21,145 bases of DNA from the IMG/VR virus record IMGVR_UViG_3300005613_000479, positions 1 to 21,145 of that record; one strand, 5' to 3'. Shown here piece by piece: positions 564 to 21,126 of this stretch. The position numbers and the translations under genes were made by a program. The notes under the pieces are model-generated. The model saw only the letters and a program-made list of their open reading frames with translations, did no database searches and was not told where the DNA came from. How positions within the stretch are numbered: the first letter of the stretch is position 1; each line of letters starts with the position of its first letter. The stretch is from a virus.

Positions 564-1561
564 GAAATACTACCACTAAATCCGAAGTCATCTCCTTCCT
601 CTATCAATGCATTATCTGTAGTAGTAATTGTTTTAATCGGAGCACCTTTCAGGTGAGAGGTAATGGTTGTTCCATCTTGACCTCTCTTAACTGTAAGTTT
701 GTTTCCGGAAATCTTAGTGATATATAATTCTTCGCCTTCAAGATCAATATAAGTTTTATTGGTCAAACCACTTACATCATCAACTTCAATTACTGTATTT
801 GTTGTTGTAATATCAGAGGAGATATTAGTTGCTACATCACCAGTATAATTCTTGAGTGCTCTTGGAGTGACTGAGTATGACAACTCTCTTGTAGTATTCG
901 TAACTTCCGTACCAGTAGCATAACTGATGGTTGCCCTCTTGATAACATCTGTAGTAGCAGAAGAAACAGGACCAAACAAATAGGTTTTGGCTGTAAATCT
1001 TAAAGTGTATAACAAAACTCTTCTAGAAGTAAAATCACCTTCGTAGTCATCTTGCATCGTTATATTTTCGAGAACGATGGGAACATCTCTTTTTTCTTTA
1101 ATACTCTCAACGAGTTCTATTGTCAGATTATAAGCAGGTTGAAAATATGGCAGTATTTGTTCGATGATTTGAAGCATATCATCATTAAGTTTGGTCATTA
1201 CACTCAGTTCAAATTGCATATTATAAGGAACTGGCATATATGCCTTTTTCGTTTCCGATCCATCTGTTGGATCTTTTATCGTAAATTGTTGTGTTGTCGT
1301 TACTTTTCTTTGTGGATCATATATAAGACCAGTAAATTCAAATGACATCCTTGGCAGAGTAATTGCCGTAGACTTATCAAGATCTGGTGATTGTTCTAAT
1401 CTTGTAAGAAATTTTTGAGTAGGTCCATAGGCAAGGGGAACTTTTACAACGTTAGTTACATTGTCGGAAGTATCCGTATGTTGTATCGTGATATTATTAA
1501 AGAGAGTACCAAAAGAAATAATAGTTCTCCTTAAAATTTCGTTGTAAAAATAGTCAAACAT
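560..1561 (-). CDS. 15: Tail completion / sheath stabiliser protein gp15
   Basis: The 333-residue product is clearly related to T4 gp15 (272 residues), the hexameric terminator that caps the tail tube and sheath and binds the neck. The N-terminus MFDYFYNEILRRTIISFG parallels T4 MFGYFYN...RR, and FELSVMTKLNDDMLQIIEQI followed by LPYFQPAYN (about 117-145) parallels the T4 segment ELSIFTRYEDDMFQIVEQILPYFQP. Residues 1-215 are therefore the gp15 core. Residues about 245-312 form an added beta-rich module with VKRGQDGTT that also appears, diverged, in both giant proteins of this window. The C-terminus is acidic (EEGDDFGF). The ATG at 1561 follows a 44-base spacer carrying a late-promoter-like motif, and the stop overlaps gp16. 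Confidence 0.93.
   Translation of the reverse strand: MFDYFYNEILRRTIISFGTLFNNITIQHTDTSDNVTNVVKVPLAYGPTQKFLTRLEQSPDLDKSTAITLPRMSFEFTGLIYDPQRKVTTTQQFTIKDPTDGSETKKAYMPVPYNMQFELSVMTKLNDDMLQIIEQILPYFQPAYNLTIELVESIKEKRDVPIVLENITMQDDYEGDFTSRRVLLYTLRFTAKTYLFGPVSSATTDVIKRATISYATGTEVTNTTRELSYSVTPRALKNYTGDVATNISSDITTTNTVIEVDDVSGLTNKTYIDLEGEELYITKISGNKLTVKRGQDGTTITSHLKGAPIKTITTTDNALIEEGDDFGFSGSIS
626..808 (-). repeat. Beta module C in gp15 C-terminus (ELYI...RGQDGTT type)
   Basis: Residues about 252-312 of gp15 follow the pattern T..I.V.D.SG.......I..EGEELYI......LTVKRGQDGTT...H..GAPI. The same order of elements (IGDEVI.Y, a beta strand, R...G, then TGTLV) is seen around 5720-5925 in the DUF4815 protein and 16370-16605 in the gp7-slot protein. 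This is divergent protein-level similarity, not a DNA repeat. Confidence 0.6.
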
Positions 1562-1602: not shown

Positions 1603-1610
1603 TATTTATG
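1603..1610 (-). promoter_or_regulatory. Late-promoter-like motif before gp15
   Basis: CATAAATA on the minus strand matches seven of eight bases of TATAAATA, the T4 late promoter core. It includes the gp14 stop (CCA TAA ATA) and lies 41 bases before the gp15 ATG, inside the 44-base spacer. It is well placed to drive gp15-gp16-gp17. Confidence 0.5.
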
Positions 1611-3030
1611 GAACTCCAAAAGGATTGCGCTCAGAAAAATCTAAAATTTGATTTGCTTCGTTCTGAATATCAAGATTCTCCGCGAATCCATCATCTGTTG
1701 GGTTTGTATCTACTTTTAACAGTGAATGAGATGCTCCAGAAGTAGATCCAACAATGCTTTCTCCAGTTACAAATGCTCCAGAAACATTAGACACTTCAAG
1801 AACATTAGTGGTTGAGTTCCAAGTTCTTACTCTTGCTGTTGTTCCGCTAGATGAACCAGTTACAATCTCATTGAATATAAATTCTCCAGTGGATCCAAGA
1901 TTCGGACTTGAAATCGTTATTGTTGGTGCTTCTGTATATCCCAAACCAGCATTAGTAATATTAATTGCCGTTATTATTCCAGCGGCACTAACAACTGCTG
2001 TCGCAGCAGCAGAAATAGTTGCAATGCCAGTAAATGTAATCGTTGGAGAAGTTGTATAACCGGATCCTCCCGAAGTAACTGTAACAATTCCAATTACACC
2101 ATCACCAATAGTGGCAGTAGCAGCAGCCCCACTTCCCCCGCCGCCAATAAATCTAACAGAAGGCGCTACGGTATATCCAGATCCTGCATTTACAATATCA
2201 ACATTTTGAACGGATTGAAGATTTGGATTAACGTTTAAATTACATACATTAATTCCACCAATCATTCTTGCAGTAGCAATACCAGTAACTCCTCCAACTG
2301 GTGCTGAAGAAATTCCAACAGTAGGAATGCTGCTATAACCCCCGCCTCTATTTGTTACAGTAATAAAACGAATGCCACCACTTACTATACTTGCAGTTGC
2401 GGTTGCTGTTACTCCTATTCCAATAAGTGTTAGAGTTTGAGTTGCTCCAAGAATAGTAGGTAATCCATTTTCATCAAGACCATCTTCTTGATTTCCAATT
2501 AAGATATCATCAATTTCTTCAACGCCAGTATCAATCAATTCATCTTCATATCTGAAGAGTTCGCATCTCAGTTGATAAACATAGTTTTTTTGTAATTGAT
2601 AAAATGGTTTTTCGTGTTCAACATACTTAATTTCATATAAACGATCACCAAGAGGAAAGTATATCAAATCCCCTTCTTTAGGTCTTGTTGAAAGTTTTAT
2701 GTTTATTTCATTTTTAATTAATGGTTGAATGTAAGATTCCCATCTATCTTTTGAAATGATTAAAGTTACCTCTTGAGTTTGCTGAATACCAAATTTGGAC
2801 ATTAAAACAGCATTATCAGAGTATCCTTCATAATTTTCTACATATGCTTCGATTGGATATGCATCATCAAAAGCAGATTGAATGACTTCTTTTAAGATAG
2901 TTTTTTCAGTTAAATATTTTCTTGGAAGATAATGGACTTCAACACCGTACATTCTCAACTGTTCGTTGATTAGATCTTGAATAAGATTTTGTTCGGATAT
3001 TGATCCTTGCTGAAAAAAAGGATTAAGCAT
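1606..3030 (-). CDS. 14: Neck protein gp14 with inserted beta-repeat region
   Basis: At 474 residues this is far longer than T4 gp14 (256 residues), which forms the neck with gp13 and joins the head to the gp15-capped tail. Residues 1-170 carry the family core: MLNPFFQQGSISEQNLIQDL, then GVEVHYLPRKYL, a YSDNAVLMSKFGIQ segment and YFPLGDRLYEIKYVEHEKPF. The C-terminus (about 445-474, ENLDIQNEANQILDFSERNP) also looks like the native tail of the family. Between them, residues about 204-374 hold three to four G-x-GYT beta repeats, and residues about 381-441 hold a GE..TGSSSGTTARV / GESIVGSTSGA module. The extra 220 or so residues thus look like an insertion near the C-terminus, probably exposed on the neck. 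The gene starts four bases after the gp13 stop, with no clear ribosome binding site. Confidence 0.92.
   Translation of the reverse strand: MLNPFFQQGSISEQNLIQDLINEQLRMYGVEVHYLPRKYLTEKTILKEVIQSAFDDAYPIEAYVENYEGYSDNAVLMSKFGIQQTQEVTLIISKDRWESYIQPLIKNEINIKLSTRPKEGDLIYFPLGDRLYEIKYVEHEKPFYQLQKNYVYQLRCELFRYEDELIDTGVEEIDDILIGNQEDGLDENGLPTILGATQTLTLIGIGVTATATASIVSGGIRFITVTNRGGGYSSIPTVGISSAPVGGVTGIATARMIGGINVCNLNVNPNLQSVQNVDIVNAGSGYTVAPSVRFIGGGGSGAAATATIGDGVIGIVTVTSGGSGYTTSPTITFTGIATISAAATAVVSAAGIITAINITNAGLGYTEAPTITISSPNLGSTGEFIFNEIVTGSSSGTTARVRTWNSTTNVLEVSNVSGAFVTGESIVGSTSGASHSLLKVDTNPTDDGFAENLDIQNEANQILDFSERNPFGVP
1708..1890 (-). repeat. Module B in gp14 (GE..xG..SGA type)
   Basis: Residues about 381-441 show paired half-motifs, FNEIVTGSSSGTTARVRTWN and FVTGESIVGSTSGA, separated by a strand (LEVSNVSG). 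The same pattern occurs in gp8, several times in the DUF4815 protein and once in the gp7-slot protein. Confidence 0.6.
1909..2421 (-). repeat. Module A array in gp14 (GxGYT beta repeats)
   Basis: Residues about 204-374 repeat a unit of roughly 45-60 residues with the core N.G.GYT..P.....G.......A.A....G.I..I...N.G.GYT. Visible copies contain NRGGGYSSIPTV, NAGSGYTVAPSV, SGGSGYTTSPTI and NAGLGYTEAPTI. The even spacing and the Gly, Ala, Thr and Ile composition suggest stacked beta structure. Confidence 0.8.
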
Positions 3031-4697: not shown

Positions 4698-7600
4698 TTA
4701 TGCCAAAGCAATAGTTCTTAACTCTTTAAATCTTGGTGGATAAGCCTGATTTGTACATGTTGCAACTATTTTAATTCTATATTTTTTAAATGAAGGTAAA
4801 TCATTTATAGTGAAAACATTTTCACGATAATCAAGTGAATTTGAATCAAAATTAAGAATTTGTGATTTGGGAACTAGTGTGTCGGATCTACCGTCATTGT
4901 TTTGTGGATTTATAACTCTTCCTCTATAATCTATGTTTTCGTATCCAGGAAAAGGTACAAACACAGGGTTAAATCCTTGATTATTACTAATAGCATAGAA
5001 TGCCCTTATATCCGAATATTCATTGATATATGCAGATAATAAAATTTTTAAAGAAGTTGCCGAATTTTCTAATGTTACTTCTTTAGAAATATATGTAAAT
5101 GATGTTGGATCATCTAGAAAACTGTTTGCTCTACTATCAGTAGCATAATCACTAATTACACTATTTACTCTATTTGATACGAAAATTGCATTTATTCTTT
5201 GAGTGTCAATAACTGGAGAAACTTTACTGTCTATTGTTTCTAAATCTAACTGAAGGTTAAATGATTTATTTCCTGGCAAATTAAGTCCAGTTAAGTTATT
5301 TTCCTCATTTATATTAGAACAAATTAATCTGGTACTGTTAAGATAGTTTGGTTTATTCAAAGTTATGTTTTCGTATCCAACATTTTGATATGGAATTTCA
5401 GTTCCACTCAAACTTTGACCTGTTATAGTTCTAATTTTTGCATCCAATTTAGTTCCAGTAACAAGTTGATTTTGTACCATCACAGAAACTATTTCAAATG
5501 GTATATTTTGGGTTGACCTGACTTCATTTCCTCCAGCAAATTTAGATTCATTAAAATAAAGTTTTGGTAATCCAACATCAGTGCTTCTATCAATACCATC
5601 TAGTGACGTATCAATTTTTATATTATATGAGTCAAATGTTATTGGATCTGTAATTTCTGCATTGTTGAGATAATGTGTTTTGTTAATTCTTCTAAGAGAA
5701 ATTCCATTAAGTTCATATTTGTAAACTAATGTTCCGGTTGGATAATTTTTCTTAAATCCAGACACATTTCTAGTGATTACTCCTCCTATTGTATTACCAA
5801 TTACTTCCGTGTACTCTATAACTTCATCCCCAATTTTTAAATAACCTGGATTTGTAGTTCCTACTCCTACATTTTCAAACTGAGCAAATACTGAAGAATC
5901 TTCTACAGAAATCGATATTGTGGAGTCAGTATTATATTCTGCAGTTAGTTTTGTGGGATTTTGATCACTTTTTGCACCATATATTGTGACATAATTGTCT
6001 TCAAAATACATTCCATTATTTTTATGGTTTACTATTATATGAAGACCATCATTATTAACTTCAATATTATTGATTTGAACATTTCCTCCATCATTATAAT
6101 TAAGTTCTGTTGTTATTCCTGAACTATTAATATAACTAACAGTATTTCCTGCACCAGAAACTATAAACTCTCCCTGAACACCATCTAAAATAATCTCATT
6201 TATATCCGAAATAGATGTAATAGAAAGTCTTGCATTAATTCCTGTTGGGATACTTCCTATTGTTCCAATTCCAAGAACATCACCAACTTTATAACCCAAA
6301 CCACCATTAGTAATAGTAGCACCAATAGCAATTCCATTGTTTATGGTAATCTCTGCTGTTGCATTTCTTCCTGTTCCGGTAATTGTTATTAAGTTAACTC
6401 CACCATAAGTTCTTCCTCCAGATGCTGGAGTATATCCAATTCCGGCATCAATAATATTGAGAGAGCCAGTAGCAGACCCAGCACTTCCCACATAATTTCC
6501 AGTAGCATTAGTTCCATATTGCAATACGGTATTTCCTAATTGCAATCCGGAATCATTTATTGTACTTGCAAATCCAACTCTAATTTCTCTAGAATTAATA
6601 ATAAGAGGATTTGTTGGAAGATTTGCTATTTGATCATTTCCTTCAGTCAAGGGAGGATTGTAGAATTGAATGTCACCTTTTGTCACAAAATTTGCTCTAT
6701 ATAATGCAAATTTTAAATCTTCCCATTGACTTGCATCCCAAGTAGACGCATTTTGAGATTTAAATAATGATCCCAAATAAGGTTGATTTGATATGAATAC
6801 CTGTGTTAATAAATCTTCTTCTCCAACTCTTGAAATAAAAACTCTATATTTTGCTGAGTGTGATAACATGCATATTGCATATTCTGTTCCTCCTCCTTCT
6901 AGATAAACCGGAGATTTAAAAGTAAATTTAGTTGGTATAGACCCATCAGTGGAAGTAGTTATTTCATCTGGATTTAATATAACTTCCGAAAAAGGTAAAA
7001 CTACTTGAGTAGGAAGACCCAACTTCATAGTCCTAATTTGAAGTATAACAGGTATGTCTGTATCATCAGTTGTTTGAAAATATACTTCGCAACTTGTTAG
7101 GAAAATTCCAGACTTTTCATCTACTGTAAATGATTGTGCAAGAGGGTCTATTATTCGACTACCTCTAGCATCCCGATTTTCTCTTGTAACTCTAGTATCA
7201 ATAATATTTGATTCTACAACTTGTGGTCCAGTTGTACTAAAAATATCCCTTTCTTCAAACCTTTGAACTACTTCAACTCTAGCATTTCTAACAGATGTAA
7301 TTTCTTCTTGGAATGTTTCTAAAATACCAGTTGAGATGTAATCTTCTTCTCCAATAGTTGATGCACTTCTTGAATCATTATTTTCATCATTAATCAATGT
7401 AAACGTTTTTGTTCCGGTTTCAAATCTTGGATTACTTGTAACATTAGGATTTGGTATAAAAAAACTAAATATACAAGTGGAAGAAACATCCGATACCAAT
7501 CTAAGATCATTTAAAACTGCTATAGCACCACTAGTTTGCCCAACAAATATCATTCCTGGTGATACCCATCCATTATATTCCCCCTGCACTTCATTTGATA

Positions 7601-12224: not shown

Positions 12225-13781
12225 TTAAAACTGCAATATTACTTTGATGTCTTCTTTTTGGTTTGATGATCTTGTAATTGAGGGTCTATTATCAACATAA
12301 ATGATATTTCCAGAATGTTTCTTAACCTCAGGATTTGACAAACCGCTTGTGAAAGATTGACCTAAGTAGTAAGTTCTATTATTTATTGTAGTAGATAGAC
12401 CCGTAAATGAAGTATCAATTCCTAAAGAAACAGATCCTCCATTAATAATAACACTTCCACCACTTGATGGATTTGCAGTAAACTGATTCAGATTGTATCC
12501 ATAAACTGGATTGGTTACTCCCACACCAGCACCAGGAGTGGTTGTAAATCCAGCAAGAGTTCTATCTTGCCAGTATTTCAAAACTCCAGTGACCGAATCA
12601 TAATTTACAACTTTTCCTGCAGCAGTTACTCCAGTTCCAATTGTTTGGGTGATTATAGTGTCTGGGGTGAAGGTAGCATCACTAACCCCAGCACCAGTTA
12701 GTTTTAGTCCATAAACCGCACTTGCCTTATCTATGGACAAATTTTCTATAGAGTCATATGCTTTTGGATTTTGAACAACTCCTACTCTTGCAATTTGATT
12801 TCCAATTATGAAATCGGGATTTTGATTATCGTTCTCAATTCTAGAATAGAGAAGAACATTTCTTGCTCCAAGTTCTCTATAAATATCTGCTCCATGACCA
12901 CCTTCTGGAGAGATTATGACATTAAATTGTGGAATAGTTGTTCCGTTAGGAACTCCACCTGCTTCTAAATCAACATTTCCAAAAGTGTATCCAGATCCTT
13001 GGTTTGATATCGTGACAGACTCAACTTCTTGATCATTATTAATGATGACAGTGCATTCTGCATCAGATCCATCACCTTTTATAGGAACTCTTGTGTAAGT
13101 TCTATTTGCAGTTCCGACACCAACTCCTCTATTAGTAACAGTAACTATTTTAATAGATCCATCCACTGCGTTTTCTCTCACCGCAGCATTTTCGGCAGAT
13201 GTTTCCCAATTTAATGGAATCGGCATAAAGTCAGTAGATTCAAACTTGGAAATCTCTGATGGTTTTATCGTATACAAATATTTCCAAATGTATCCATCCC
13301 CACTAGTTCCAGCAGATTTTGGTTCTAAATCAGTAAAAGTTGGCTCATCAAGAGAAGGTTGTCCAGTTGGAGTTTCTGGTGTTGTGCCATTTTGCAAGCA
13401 AATATAAACTCTATAATCACTATTGATTATAAAATAATTTGCTGAATATAAACTTGTTGCACCAGATCTAGCAGGGTTTCTAATACTATAATCGTGTCGA
13501 TACATATCATATGTTGTACCGGAATTCCAAAAACGTTTGGGAACTACAAGTCTGACATCAGAACTATCAATTTTTTTCAATGCAATCATTGTGTCCCAAT
13601 AATTATTCTCTTCATCAAAATTATCAAGTGGGCTTGGTGGACTAGTATCCCAATTTGATTGAATATTAGTTGGGTTTGGTAGTCCAATAAAGGAATAATA
13701 AGAATTTGAAGTAGTACTTACACCAGCAACAAAATTCTTAGCATTCAATATTCTAATCTGATCAGTTATAATAGCTGCCAT
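12225..13781 (-). CDS. 8: Baseplate wedge protein gp8
   Basis: The 518-residue product corresponds to T4 gp8 (334 residues), a wedge subunit that binds gp7, gp10 and gp6 in the baseplate. Conserved points are YYSFIG (about 28-33), WDTMIALKKI then VVPKRFWNSG (about 62-88), YRVYICLQNG (about 123-132), GTSGDGYIWKYLYTIKP (about 158-174), which mirrors T4 GDGYVWEYLFEIPP, and the end KHSGNIIYVDNRPSI (about 488-502) with a final KVILQF, mirroring T4 RHSGEMIYMENRPPI and INILFTF. The extra length lies mainly at residues about 204-275 (GxGYT repeat) and 340-480 (module B-like TGVTAAGKVVNYD and Gly-rich strands). The ATG at 13781 follows a 21-base spacer with a late-promoter-like motif. Confidence 0.94.
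   Translation of the reverse strand: MAAIITDQIRILNAKNFVAGVSTTSNSYYSFIGLPNPTNIQSNWDTSPPSPLDNFDEENNYWDTMIALKKIDSSDVRLVVPKRFWNSGTTYDMYRHDYSIRNPARSGATSLYSANYFIINSDYRVYICLQNGTTPETPTGQPSLDEPTFTDLEPKSAGTSGDGYIWKYLYTIKPSEISKFESTDFMPIPLNWETSAENAAVRENAVDGSIKIVTVTNRGVGVGTANRTYTRVPIKGDGSDAECTVIINNDQEVESVTISNQGSGYTFGNVDLEAGGVPNGTTIPQFNVIISPEGGHGADIYRELGARNVLLYSRIENDNQNPDFIIGNQIARVGVVQNPKAYDSIENLSIDKASAVYGLKLTGAGVSDATFTPDTIITQTIGTGVTAAGKVVNYDSVTGVLKYWQDRTLAGFTTTPGAGVGVTNPVYGYNLNQFTANPSSGGSVIINGGSVSLGIDTSFTGLSTTINNRTYYLGQSFTSGLSNPEVKKHSGNIIYVDNRPSITRSSNQKEDIKVILQF
12549..12686 (-). repeat. Module B copy in gp8
   Basis: Residues about 366-411 read as DTIITQTIGTGVTAAGKVVN, then a VTGVLKYWQDRTLAGF strand. This aligns by pattern with the G..SGATA.V..W....L.V....G.F unit of gp14. 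Confidence 0.45.
12981..13172 (-). repeat. Module A copy in gp8
   Basis: Residues about 204-267 comprise VTVTNRGVG, an Asp/Thr strand (GSDAECTVIINND) and VTISNQGSGYTFG, the same half-unit order as the gp14 array. T4 gp8 has nothing comparable at this site as far as I recall. Confidence 0.6.
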
Positions 13782-13807: not shown

Positions 13808-16800
13808 TTGATACATATGTGGTCTGGATGTAGTTTATATATCTAAGTGGTTTTGTTCTGTTTACATGACCGCCAGTTACAATTCCAGTTACACCATTAT
13901 TTGTATATGCATTATATGTGTTAGTTCCAACTCTTGTACTGAAGTTGAGTTTGCCCCAACTATATTCTCCATAAAAAGTACTTGTTCCAATTCCAGATAA
14001 AGAATTGTAATCCGATACACTGACGGTAACTTTAGCAACATAAGTAACTCCAAATCCAATAGCATCTGTTTGTGCAATAGAAACAGATGCAACTCGATAT
14101 ACATTATCTAAACATGTTGTACCAATACCAATTACTCCACCATCACTATCTAATGAAGTTACTCCATTTCCAACGTTAGAATTATAAACAACAAAGTAAT
14201 ATCCCGTTTGAATACCACTTATCGTAGTAAATCCCGTAATTTCAGATTCTCTGAGGAAAGAATCTTTCTCAATTAACAAATCAAATACAATTCCAGTCGA
14301 TGCTACTCCAACTGAAGTGGTAGATATACCGGTTATTAATCCATAATCTCCTTCATATGATGCTATTCTATTTGTTTCATAAACAATACTTGGAGATTCT
14401 ATCAAAACAACTGGTGGATTTGATGTTGTATATCCAAATCCTGGATTTGTAATTGCGATAGATACCACACTTCCACCAGAAATAGTCGCAGATGCAAATG
14501 CATTATGAGTAGAACCAATTCCAACAGTTCCAGCAATACTAACGATTGGTGATGTTGTATATCCAACTCCACCATCAGATATAACAACAGATGAAATAGT
14601 TCCAGCAGAAGAAACAACAGCAGTAGCGGAAGCAGAAACTATCGTATTTTGTGAGACTAAAATTACATCTCTTTGAAATACAAAAGGATCGGATCCACCA
14701 GCATCAGTTTCATTTAATGGATTGAAGAATGGTCTTACATTATCAACAAAAACTACAGTTTCTCCAACACCAACAGATTTGATTAAATATGCTGATGGAT
14801 TGATATTTGCTTCATATAATTCTCTACTCTTTCCGACTATTTTTGAATTAATAAATACATCTTCTGTTTGTCTACACCAAACAACTGGTCTCTTTAAATC
14901 TGGATTGTCAACATTTCCCGGACCATAATATGGATTAGTAGTAACAACATTTACACTATCAACTGACTCAACTAATCTTTTATCTTCATCTAGAGATGGA
15001 GATTGATTCAACGAAGGTGCATGTTGAATTCTTAATGTATCTCCAGGTTCTACATCATTAATAATTTCTTTAAATTCCACATCCACTATCCCAGATCCCT
15101 TATAGAAAATAATTTTTGAAGTATCACCTTCTTTTGGAGGTTCAGTAAAGGTTATGATATTTCCTCCACCAAAAGTATATCCTTCTTCAGGAACTTGTAA
15201 TATATCATTAATGAATATTAATAATGTATAATCGACATTAATATATGATCCAGGTGCAGAAAGAATATTTACAACTTCTCCTGCCAATCTAAGAGAAAAT
15301 GTTCTTCTTCTTCCATTGAATAATGTACTAATATCGTCAAGTATATCTAAATCACCAATACTCCATCCAGAAAACTTATCATTAACAGTTTTATCAACTG
15401 TTAACTCAAAAGGAATATAATCAGATGTAGTTGGAATACCAGAGATGCCTCCTATAGGCAAGGTTAAAATTTCACCTTGACCATATCCATATCCAGTAGA
15501 TTGAATTTCAAAATCAATAATACTTGACCCTTGACCAACTATAACATTAATAAATGCTGATGTTCCAACGCCTAAAACCGAATTATTAGAATAAATTAAT
15601 GGTATATTTGAATATGAAAGTGGAGCATCAAATATTACATATGGTGGATTTGTTGTAGTATATCCAGTTCCTGGATTTGTAACTGCAATACTTACAATAT
15701 TTCCGTTGCTTACAGTTGCAGTACCAACAAAATGAATACTTGGAGTGCCTGTTGTTGAGGTTGCTACTCCAACATTAACTGTTTGAATTTGCCTATATCC
15801 AGATCCACTGTTTCCGATACTAATTGATTGTATTGTTCCGGATATGGAAACAATAGCAGTTCCTCCAGCAGATACAAGGGGTTGATACCCAAATCCTTCA
15901 CTAGAACCAACAGATACAATCATTCCACCTCTAGGAAAAGAAGAAATGCCAATATCTTTTCCTAAAGATTGTCCAAATCCAACAAACTCTAAATTAGTCT
16001 CTCCAGAAGATTCTGTTAATGTATAAGTATATTCTTGCCCAACATTTTGAAATATTTCATTTATTAAGACAATTGCATTACCGGTAGAAATACCAGTTAC
16101 ATTAGATCCTTCAGATTTTAATGTAAAAGTTTTTGCGATTCCAGTAAATCCTTCGGATATATCATCAAAAATATAATTTTGGTGATATGCTTCTCCAACT
16201 CCATTTGGAATGCCAGATCGCATAAACATTCTTCCATGAAATTTAGAGTTTGTAGAAATTCCCACCCAATCTCTTTCTTCTGGTCTATTTGTTGAAGTGG
16301 AAAGAGGAACATTTCCGTATGGAGCAGTAACAAAATTAAGAGTATTTCCTACAATATTATAATCTCCATTAACCTTAGTGACTAATGTGCCGGTTGAATA
16401 TCCAGCATAATTTGTTCCCATCCATGATCTTTTAACTCTTATTCCATTAGTTGCCCCTATTCCTATCCCTTCAATTTGCAATATTTCACTTCCAATTCTG
16501 ATTAAATCCCCACCAAAAAAAGATGTTATTCCTGTAAAGAAAATAATATCATCAACAGATGAGACCTGATCTGCAAGAGTTGTCGTCAAAGAAGTAGAAA
16601 CAATTGGGGATTGAATATTATTATCTAATGCAATGATAACTTTATTGTTTTGATTTTTTGCGATTAAAGTGTGTGAAGTTCCTATTCCAACATGAATTAA
16701 ATCAAATACTACTGGATTACTACTAAGTGCATCTTGAGCAGTTGCTGCAAGTTTTATTGTTTTATCATCAACTTTAAGTGCAAATACTGTAGGAGGAAGT

Positions 16801-19800
16801 TTATCTGTAGTCCCAAATCCAACAATGGATGTTGTTCCAATACCAATGGCCATTGTGGATCCAATTCCAGCATGAGAATATGAAAGTTCTTCTCCAGTCA
16901 CAAAGAAATGATTTGGTATAATAATAGTATTGTTGTTAATGTCAACAATATTAGTATTATTTCCCTCAAAATCTCTTACAAAAACAGGATAATTTTCATA
17001 TGAAAGTCCAAATTGTCTCTTAACGTCTATACTGGTTCCTTGATATTCCGAAAAATCTGTTTCTATAATTGCATTGGTAAAGTCAATTTGATCTGGTAGA
17101 GAATCTGGATCATCATACTTGAATGCATTCATGTAAACTTTTACTTCAACGTCAATACTCGGAAGTGGAGTAAAAGTTAAACGAGTATCAACTGGATGTA
17201 TATGATAAGAACCAATAGTTCCCAAACCAGAATGGGTCTCCAAATTTCCATACTCTGTCTGGAAAGTTATTGATTCTGCGTCTTCTTCAAGAACTAAAAC
17301 TTCAGAAATCTGGTGTCTATTATTAGTAACATCCGAAACCTGAACTATAAAATACGCAGCATCATATCCTTCATCAAAAATAGCAATATCGTGTGCAACA
17401 GGAGAAGTAGAAGAACCAATAGAGGTCGATCTTCCTTCGATCAAAACATGTCTCATTTGATAAGTTCCTATTCCGGTAGAGGAAGAGTTTGTCATAGAAA
17501 CTCTTAAAGAATTGACTGTAGCAGCAACTCCCGGATTTGGAATAAAATCAAGATTAACATTAGATCCCGATATATAAGCACTATATGTGCCTAATCCAGA
17601 TCCAACATATCCTTCATCGGATATATTGTTTATTCTTCCAAATTCTACAATTGAAACATCAGAGTTATCGTGAATTATACTTATTTCATTATATTCAAAT
17701 AGTCCGTCTGGAGTTCCAATTTCCAATAAAACCTTAGATGATGTGTATGTTGTAGCAATTCCAACTATTGTTGTAGTAACTCCGGAAGAAACTTCAATAC
17801 TTGTTGTGGCAACACTTATAGGACCAAAATCAGAATTTCCAGCACCTATTAATGACTCCTTTAAGCTATAAGAAATAGATGATATATCATAATTATTTAC
17901 AGAATATTTTACTGGATAGAATCGAAGTACAGAATCTAAACCATCCGTTAATACATCAAAATTTCCCAAATCATTATATCCCTCAATTCCATATTGATTC
18001 AAATATGTATTATTTTTACCGTCTATTATAAAAGAGATTGCAGATAACTGTCTTTCGTCAGTATACCTAGTATCTTGAACATAAATGATATATTTTTGTG
18101 CGACAATATCTCCTCCAGAGGATATTCTATGAACATCAGCATATCTTGTTGATCTTGGATTGCTATTAAATTGACTACTTATATCATCAAAAAGTAAAAC
18201 TCTATTTCCAATAGACTCTGTATAATCTGTTAATATTTGATTTTCAAAAATAATCTGATTAGATGCAAGTTTTCCATTAATATTAATTGCATTTTCTGTT
18301 ACTAAATCAAAATTGTTAACACAATTTAGATCAATCTCTCCAATTAAATCGACCTTTACTTCCAAATCAGTTACATTTGTTGGAATACCAACTATCATTG
18401 AACTGGGAATATCCAACAAAGATTCCATTTGATAGTCGGAAAACTTTTTAAATCCAGGTGTGTGATTTAAATTGCTAACAGTATTATTCCAAGTATCATA
18501 ATCAATAGTTGACTTCAATGAATATGAAAAATTTTGATAATAGAAACTATCTTGAATTCTTTGAGAGTTGTTGCTAATAAATCCTGCATCGTATGACCAT
18601 CCACCAACGACTCTTGAAAATGAATTCAAATTATACGAAGAATCAATAGAAATAGATTTTGAAATAAGTGCTTCTGATTTTGAAGATTGTCCTATTAATA
18701 TCGTTCCTTCTTCAAATTCATCTTTTGTTTCTATAACCGCATATTCTGTAATTGGATCCCATTTGGCAATTTTTCCGAATGATTTTCCATCAAAGGACTT
18801 TACCTCTTCTCCAACCAAAAAATTATTTTTCGATAAAGTCACATCAAATATTGGAAATTGTTTTTCTGGGATTACTCTTCCAATAGATTCAATAGAATCA
18901 AAAGTTCCTGGACTTTCTTCTGGTAAAAGAAATCCATCTAAACTATAAATGATATTAGCTCCAGACCCACCATAATTTGGATTTACAGTTTTTACTGTAA
19001 ACAATTCATAGTTATAATTTGAAGAATTATAACCTTTGTTTGTAGACCCAGCTCCAATACTTATGCCTTCTATAAGAATTTTATCATTGACAGAAAACGG
19101 AAATCCACCAATAGTAGTAAATCCAACAGATAAAACTATCGTAACATCTTTGGTTACAGAATCATATGATACACTAGATATTCCAACTCCATTGCAATTT
19201 TGTGTTGGAATAATTATCGGAGTAACGTCGAATAAACCTTTAGTATTATTTAAAATATCTACAGTATTATTAGAAACATCAAATCTAAGATCAACCTCAT
19301 TCAAAACTTTTTTAGTGCTCCCATCTAAAACAATTAATTCTGGTGCAGTAACATATCCAACTCCAGCAGAAGAAACTCCGATACTTTTTATATTCGATAG
19401 GGGTTCAATATTTAATACTTCTGGTATTTTGGATGATGGCCTTACTGTAAAATCAGTAGGATAATCAAATCCAATAGTGTCTATCTTTACTTCTTCAATT
19501 TTTCCTATGGAATTACTTTCTGGTTCTAAAATGGCATTAGAACCAAGATCACTAATGATTGTAGATATTCCGGGAAGAACATCAAATCCACTTCCCCCAT
19601 TAATTATTTCTATTTTTCTTATAGGCCCAAATGCAGTTTCGGATGAAGTACTATAAGATAAATTTGCATCATTTATTGTATATTGAGATTTTTCTGGATA
19701 TTTTTCTAAATCGTATGTAAAAGTAGAACCTGTAGAAACATAAACATTATAATTGCCATTATAAAGACTTTCTTTTATAAAAATCTTGTTATTTTGCTTT

Positions 19801-21110: not shown

Positions 21111-21126
21111 TTAATCGATATTTAAT
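21106..21126 (-). repeat. 11-bp tandem direct repeat at the gene junction
   Basis: ATTAAATATC occurs twice on the minus strand (21126-21117 and 21115-21106), separated by one G. The repeat covers the last codons and stop of the upstream gene and the ATA at which the gp7-slot frame opens. Each copy also contains TTAAATA, a partial match to the late promoter core. Confidence 0.75.
21108..21115 (-). promoter_or_regulatory. Weak late-promoter-like motif before the gp7-slot gene
   Basis: ATTAAATA on the minus strand matches six of eight bases of TATAAATA and includes the upstream stop (GAT TAA ATA), as at other spaced junctions. If used, transcription would start near 21102 and leave a leader of nearly 90 bases to the GTG at 21014. 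Confidence 0.2.

Follow-up and report, generated by a model that had tools for sequence, protein, structure and literature searches.

What is a tandem array of short GxGYT beta-repeats doing in the neck protein of a T4-like cyanophage, and are the similar stretches in other structural proteins of the same virus related to it? These questions are raised by the window studied here, a 21,145-base virus record from a T4-like cyanomyovirus, whose nearest annotated relative is the Synechococcus phage S-SM2 (74% identity in gp14 and 72% in gp8). The minus-strand gene order is gp7-slot, gp8, DUF4815/VrlC, three small genes, gp13, gp14, gp15 and gp16. An earlier note, made from the sequence, had proposed that the repeat is a decoration that spread among unrelated structural proteins of one virion.

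Residues 2-176 of gp14 correspond to the PF11649 T4_neck-protein core (Pfam scan, E 2.7e-29), and a match to phrog_460 (head closure Hc2, E 8.4e-135) placed the protein in the Hc2 head-closure family. Gp8 was identified as a member of the wedge family by PF09215 (Pfam, E 2.6e-15) and by phrog_438, which matched over residues 1-518 (E 3.1e-166). The reading frame of the gp7-slot protein is interrupted by an in-frame stop at 21111-21113 (minus strand), 11 codons from the record edge and at a point where the gp7 of S-SM2 continues; about 1,600 upstream residues of the protein fall outside the record. This stop, located at the end of the contig, is likely to reflect an error in assembly or sequencing. 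The features of gp14 are:

1606..3030, minus strand: gp14 neck/head-closure protein, 474 aa, bearing the array (Pfam T4_neck-protein and PHROG head closure Hc2).
1903..2412, minus strand: gp14 GxGYT array, residues 207-376, with units at 2302-2412, 2140-2253, 2023-2133 and 1903-2016 (HMM and AF2).
1705..1893, minus strand: gp14 small beta-domain, residues 380-442, with the array in its first loop (alignment with S-PM2, Syn1 and P-SSM4; model strands).

The earlier note had placed the repeats correctly, as window positions 1909-2421 (minus strand) are gp14 residues 204-374. The four units, each of about 37 residues (207-243, 260-297, 300-336 and 339-376), follow the pattern ATAxV - turn - VxxIxVTNxG - GYTxxP - TVxI, in which strands A (ATAxV), B (VxxIxVTNxG) and C (PTVxI) are linked via a glycine/tyrosine turn. 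The earlier note had suggested predicting the structure of residues 204-374 to look for a repeated beta fold, and the AlphaFold model of gp14 had repeated three-stranded units, mostly at high confidence, with strands A, B and C present in every unit (AF2). The pLDDT was about 84-92 for most of residues 210-340, with a dip to 66 near residues 261-270, and 77-90 onward to residue 380; the N-terminal core was poorly predicted. The array is bracketed in the model by strands 196-202 and 389-392, which agrees with insertion into a loop.

A fold search with the gp14 model gave T4 gp14 as its sole significant match, over the N-terminal core only, and no significant PDB match for the array; matches over residues 195-447 were to small barrels, with Z values that did not exceed about 6 and were too low for an assignment. 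A PDB sequence search using the unit profile found no match, and neither Pfam nor NCBIfam had a model that matched the unit in the scanned proteins. The BFVD predicted structures that resembled the gp14 model, in a search with the entire model, included cyanophage structural proteins and proteins with P22 gp10-like names. Literature searches using the letters of the motif yielded no paper in biology, term searches of Sullivan 2010 and the S-CREM2 paper found no passage on the unit, and no functional or structural experiment on the module came to light.

Alignments of gp14 from related phages revealed both empty and filled versions of the site. The gp14 proteins of S-PM2 and Syn1 (292 aa) and P-SSM4 (308 aa) have no array and have kept the small C-terminal domain (residues 380-442 of the window protein); in all three the flanks are joined directly, and the first strand of the domain is continuous with the remainder. 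Elsewhere, two units were counted in Syn9, three in P-SSM2, four in S-SM2, in the window and in most close relatives, and up to six or more in other contigs. Among 104 complete gp14 frames, a non-random set in which many loci were fetched by array-derived patterns, the median length was 292 aa with no unit, 310 aa with two, 476 aa with three and 478 aa with four, and frames with six reached up to 852 aa. The longest gp14 array here is in an 852 aa relative (L255:1469-4027), which has six HMM units and extra ones recognized by eye. Copy number, which the earlier note had proposed to compare between relatives, thus varies as an add-on to parts of gp14 that stay constant, namely the N-terminal core and the small beta-domain towards the C-terminus, in which the tail motif is retained. 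As these alignments show, the array is optional in gp14 and lies inserted in a loop of the small C-terminal beta-domain. Residues 380-442 themselves had weak iterative matches to DUF4815 residues 871-922 and 1452-1478 and to gp7-slot residues 731-781, and are perhaps a third shared module.

The search for related units in the other proteins began from an HMM built from the four gp14 units alone, with 1,200 shuffled proteins as the control (top shuffle 5.2 bits). This HMM scored 20.0 and 15.5 bits on gp8 and 14.3, 12.2, 9.8, 7.4 and 6.7 bits on the gp7-slot protein. The DUF4815 copies were the weakest, at 7.1 bits. When the HMM was widened with gp14 relatives, two gp7-slot units reached 30.0 and 23.7 bits and gp8 reached 22.4 bits. 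The copies are:

12957..13172, minus strand: gp8 two-unit module, residues 204-275 (HMM, hhalign and a gap in T4 gp8).
14391..14639, minus strand: gp7-slot two units, residues 2126-2208 (30.0 and 23.7 bits; hhalign E 8.7e-15).
15615..15875, minus strand: gp7-slot two units, residues 1714-1800 (12.9 and 14.5 bits; 28-34 bits with relatives included).
19335..19628, minus strand: gp7-slot weak units, residues about 463-560 (9.8 and 5.5 bits; tblastn E 7.6e-6).
6255..6450, minus strand: DUF4815 degenerate two-unit module, residues about 1923-1988 (hhalign with orthologue profile).

The unit had been said to occur at four places in the gp7-slot protein, and about four clusters were found (residues 463-559, 1707-1795, 1841 and 2127-2207). 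Profile comparisons by hhalign, with 45-56 orthologues for the gp14-array, DUF4815 and gp7-slot profiles and 76 rows for gp8, matched the gp14 array to the gp7-slot protein (98.4%, pairwise E 8.7e-15), the DUF4815 protein (95.5%, E 1.4e-8) and gp8 (85.8%, E 5.3e-6). The best E-values from column shuffles (n=60) were 0.012, 0.046 and 0.0017, respectively, and none of the unrelated tiles from gp8, gp14 and gp15 gave a match. A broader unit HMM gave the DUF4815 copies 4.7 bits, under the best shuffle of 7.2 bits, and their membership was clear only via the orthologue profile. In a distant DUF4815 homologue (L191), two canonical units directly follow a conserved block shared with the window protein. 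PHROG links from the gp14 array led to gp8 (phrog_438), the gp7-slot protein (phrog_2885), the hub/lysozyme (phrog_1922) and several virion-protein families.

The profile HMM search that the earlier note had set as its check therefore produced cross-matches between the proteins that were above the controls, and excluded the outcome it had named as counting against a shared unit, namely no significant cross-hits. At the level of sequence, these comparisons demonstrated that gp14, gp8, the gp7-slot protein and the DUF4815 protein carry related copies. The AlphaFold model of gp8 was too weak for a detailed comparison (mean pLDDT 50), with pLDDT of about 54-80 in the module and a strand order like that of the gp14 units, so a common fold in gp8 would rest on sequence and strand order. 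All aligned Kyanoviridae gp8 proteins had the two-unit segment, either intact or degenerate, some of them scoring below the HMM threshold, and the only gap was in T4. The idea of a variable decoration did not hold for gp8, as its module is fixed in every Kyanoviridae gp8 aligned.

Units within the window have about 40-60% protein identity, and those of gp14 resemble one another no more closely than they resemble the units of the gp7-slot protein, which indicates that the spread is old. Recent copying within the genome was ruled out, as DNA identity between units is 59-73% where most of the unit aligns. Mean pairwise identity across 56 gp14 sequences was 63% in the array, 61% in the adjacent small domain and 75% in the N-terminal core, and the gp8 module had 74% versus 73-75% in the remaining gp8. 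A fast-evolving receptor domain is disfavoured, the array and the gp8 module being constrained. The receptor or glycan contact put forward in the earlier note was unsupported, as neither is hypervariable. One Gly of the motif and the Tyr are the only residues that reach 90% conservation among the units, and thus there is no catalytic residue common to all of them.

The distribution of the unit among genomes was surveyed using a profile of 28 units. Seven Kyanoviridae genomes had 2-22 significant copies each (S-SM2 13, P-SSM2 10, Syn1 9, P-SSM4 22, S-PM2 9, Syn9 21 and HTVC008M 2), phiM12 had a single weak match, and the genomes of T4 and KVP40 had none. T4 gp8 and gp14 had been said to lack the unit; both have alignment gaps there, and the whole T4 genome was unmatched. 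In viral contigs fetched via a DNA pattern, the unit occurred in 84 open frames at 77 loci, 20 of these frames being gp14 relatives. No plasmid matched the unit. A MAG contig labelled Euryarchaeota (L175) carries cyanophage gp13, gp14, gp15 and DUF4815 genes, and is probably phage DNA that was misbinned.

Units were also identified in bacteria, with 4 of 151 sampled Chloroflexota genomes matched at 1e-8. One 4057-residue frame in a Dehalococcoidia MAG (L176) had 28 HMM matches, and another Chloroflexota protein (L180) has a tandem GxGYT array. The first of these (L176:1-6378) has dozens of GxGYT units followed by a multicopper-oxidase-like region, for which the Pfam hits were sub-threshold. 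The unit in these arrays is identical in kind to that of the phages; however, the bacterial arrays are long, adjoin the multicopper-oxidase-like region and belong to non-virion proteins, whereas the phage units are in virion proteins. Such long arrays in Chloroflexota proteins indicate that the unit is not phage-specific. The view of a module spread among unrelated structural proteins was therefore upheld, but its limitation to one virion was not, as the unit is also Kyanoviridae-wide and present in many proteins of other uncultured phages and in bacterial proteins, and its copies are old.

An insert of about 60 residues in gp15 constitutes a second module:

620..802, minus strand: gp15 module, residues 254-314, before the conserved C-terminus; unrelated to GxGYT (iterative HMM).

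Iterative profile searches linked this module to gp7-slot residues 1495-1549 and DUF4815 residues 2103-2167, on weaker evidence than the GxGYT controls. The insert is present in S-SM2 and P-SSM4 and missing from P-SSM2, S-PM2, Syn9 and Syn1. The gp15 insert of P-SSM4 occurs without a gp14 array, whereas P-SSM2 combines the gp14 array with a gp15 that lacks the insert, and these opposite combinations indicate independent gain or loss of the two.

With regard to role, we lean towards the GxGYT unit being an old, mobile structural beta-module that would act as a surface extension or spacer. In T4, the C-terminal arm of gp14 (residues 178-256) is ordered on gp15 with extensive contacts in the finished virion (PMC12270204). 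Based on these contacts and on the insertion being in the corresponding region of the cyanophage gp14, the array is most likely located around the neck, adjoining gp15. A gp14 hexamer, as in T4, would bring 24 units to the neck of each virion. The array there may be a passive extension that provides a larger outer surface and lateral contacts, probably with an outward orientation, and would be neither an enzyme nor a fast-evolving receptor binder. Three cultured relatives have no array, so it cannot be essential to head closure in general. Its loss in several relatives shows that the neck works without it, and this does not favour an essential contact.

A tentative and rather less probable explanation is that the modules lock adjacent subunits to one another (gp14 to gp15, and gp8 to the wedge) and so stabilise the virion. 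The contacts of the T4 gp14 arm with gp15 (PMC12270204) are consistent with such a role, as are the conservation of the gp8 module, which is present in all aligned Kyanoviridae gp8 and conserved like the rest of the protein, and the count of four units in the gp14 of most close relatives. However, the array is wholly absent from the gp14 of S-PM2, Syn1 and P-SSM4, and the gp14 array and the gp15 module were gained or lost independently of each other.

We consider it doubtful that the modules bind glycans of the host surface or the environment weakly and keep the phage near its host, as proposed for Ig-like domains. The many copies per virion and the arrays in giant baseplate and fiber-like proteins would suit such binding, and one unit-bearing phage protein has a sub-threshold hit to the carbohydrate-binding CBM_5_12 model (E 0.0011). 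Nevertheless, the sequence of the unit is constrained, with few gaps, and no binding-site pattern common to the units was found. In addition, the neck and gp8 are away from the host-contacting tip, as is known for T4. Finally, convergence of Gly/Ala/Thr-rich beta sequence with no common ancestry is very improbable and was rejected, for although the composition is simple, the motif short and the DUF4815 copies alone below shuffles with one HMM, column shuffles of the same composition fell far short of the real matches and unrelated tiles were unmatched.

Beyond the extension or spacer role that we prefer, the case is evenly balanced for a broader proposal, in which an unnamed beta-repeat family of marine T4-like phages and bacterial proteins would be a general virion plug-in. 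GxGYT (in gp14, gp8, gp7 and DUF4815) and another module (in gp15) would be swapped independently at fixed loops, giving conserved neck and baseplate cores with interchangeable surfaces. Kyanoviridae are abundant ocean viruses whose giant structural proteins are mostly unannotated, and a name for the module would give many of these proteins a partial annotation. The natural gp14 series of 0, 2, 3, 4 and 6 or more units includes the cultured phages S-PM2, Syn1, P-SSM4, Syn9, P-SSM2 and S-SM2, and permits direct comparison of the role of a virion decoration.

T4 gp14 (PF11649) has the homologous N-terminal core (residues 2-176) and the C-terminal tail motif but neither the small beta-domain nor the array, and T4 gp8 (PF09215) is homologous in its N- and C-terminal parts but has a gap where the window protein has its two-unit module (residues 204-275). 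The closest parallel to the GxGYT unit is with the Ig-like domains of tailed phages, Big_1, Big_2, I-set and FN3 (review PMC9022992). Both are small, optional beta-modules situated in loops or at C-termini of unrelated structural proteins, and the function of the Ig-like domains is debated. The Ig fold is a seven- to nine-stranded beta-sandwich; the GxGYT unit has about 37 residues, occurs in tandem and has three strands in the gp14 model. None of the Ig-like Pfam families (Big, I-set, FN3) was found in gp14, gp8, the DUF4815 protein, the gp7-slot protein, L176 or the further unit-bearing proteins, and the unit is therefore not classed as Ig-like despite its similar behaviour. GxGYT is best called a new, as yet unnamed family that behaves like the Ig-like decoration domains. 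Its site in a head-closure protein, which is not among the five protein classes of the Ig-like review (PMC9022992), carries the concept of a promiscuous decoration domain beyond fibers, tubes and capsids to head closure.
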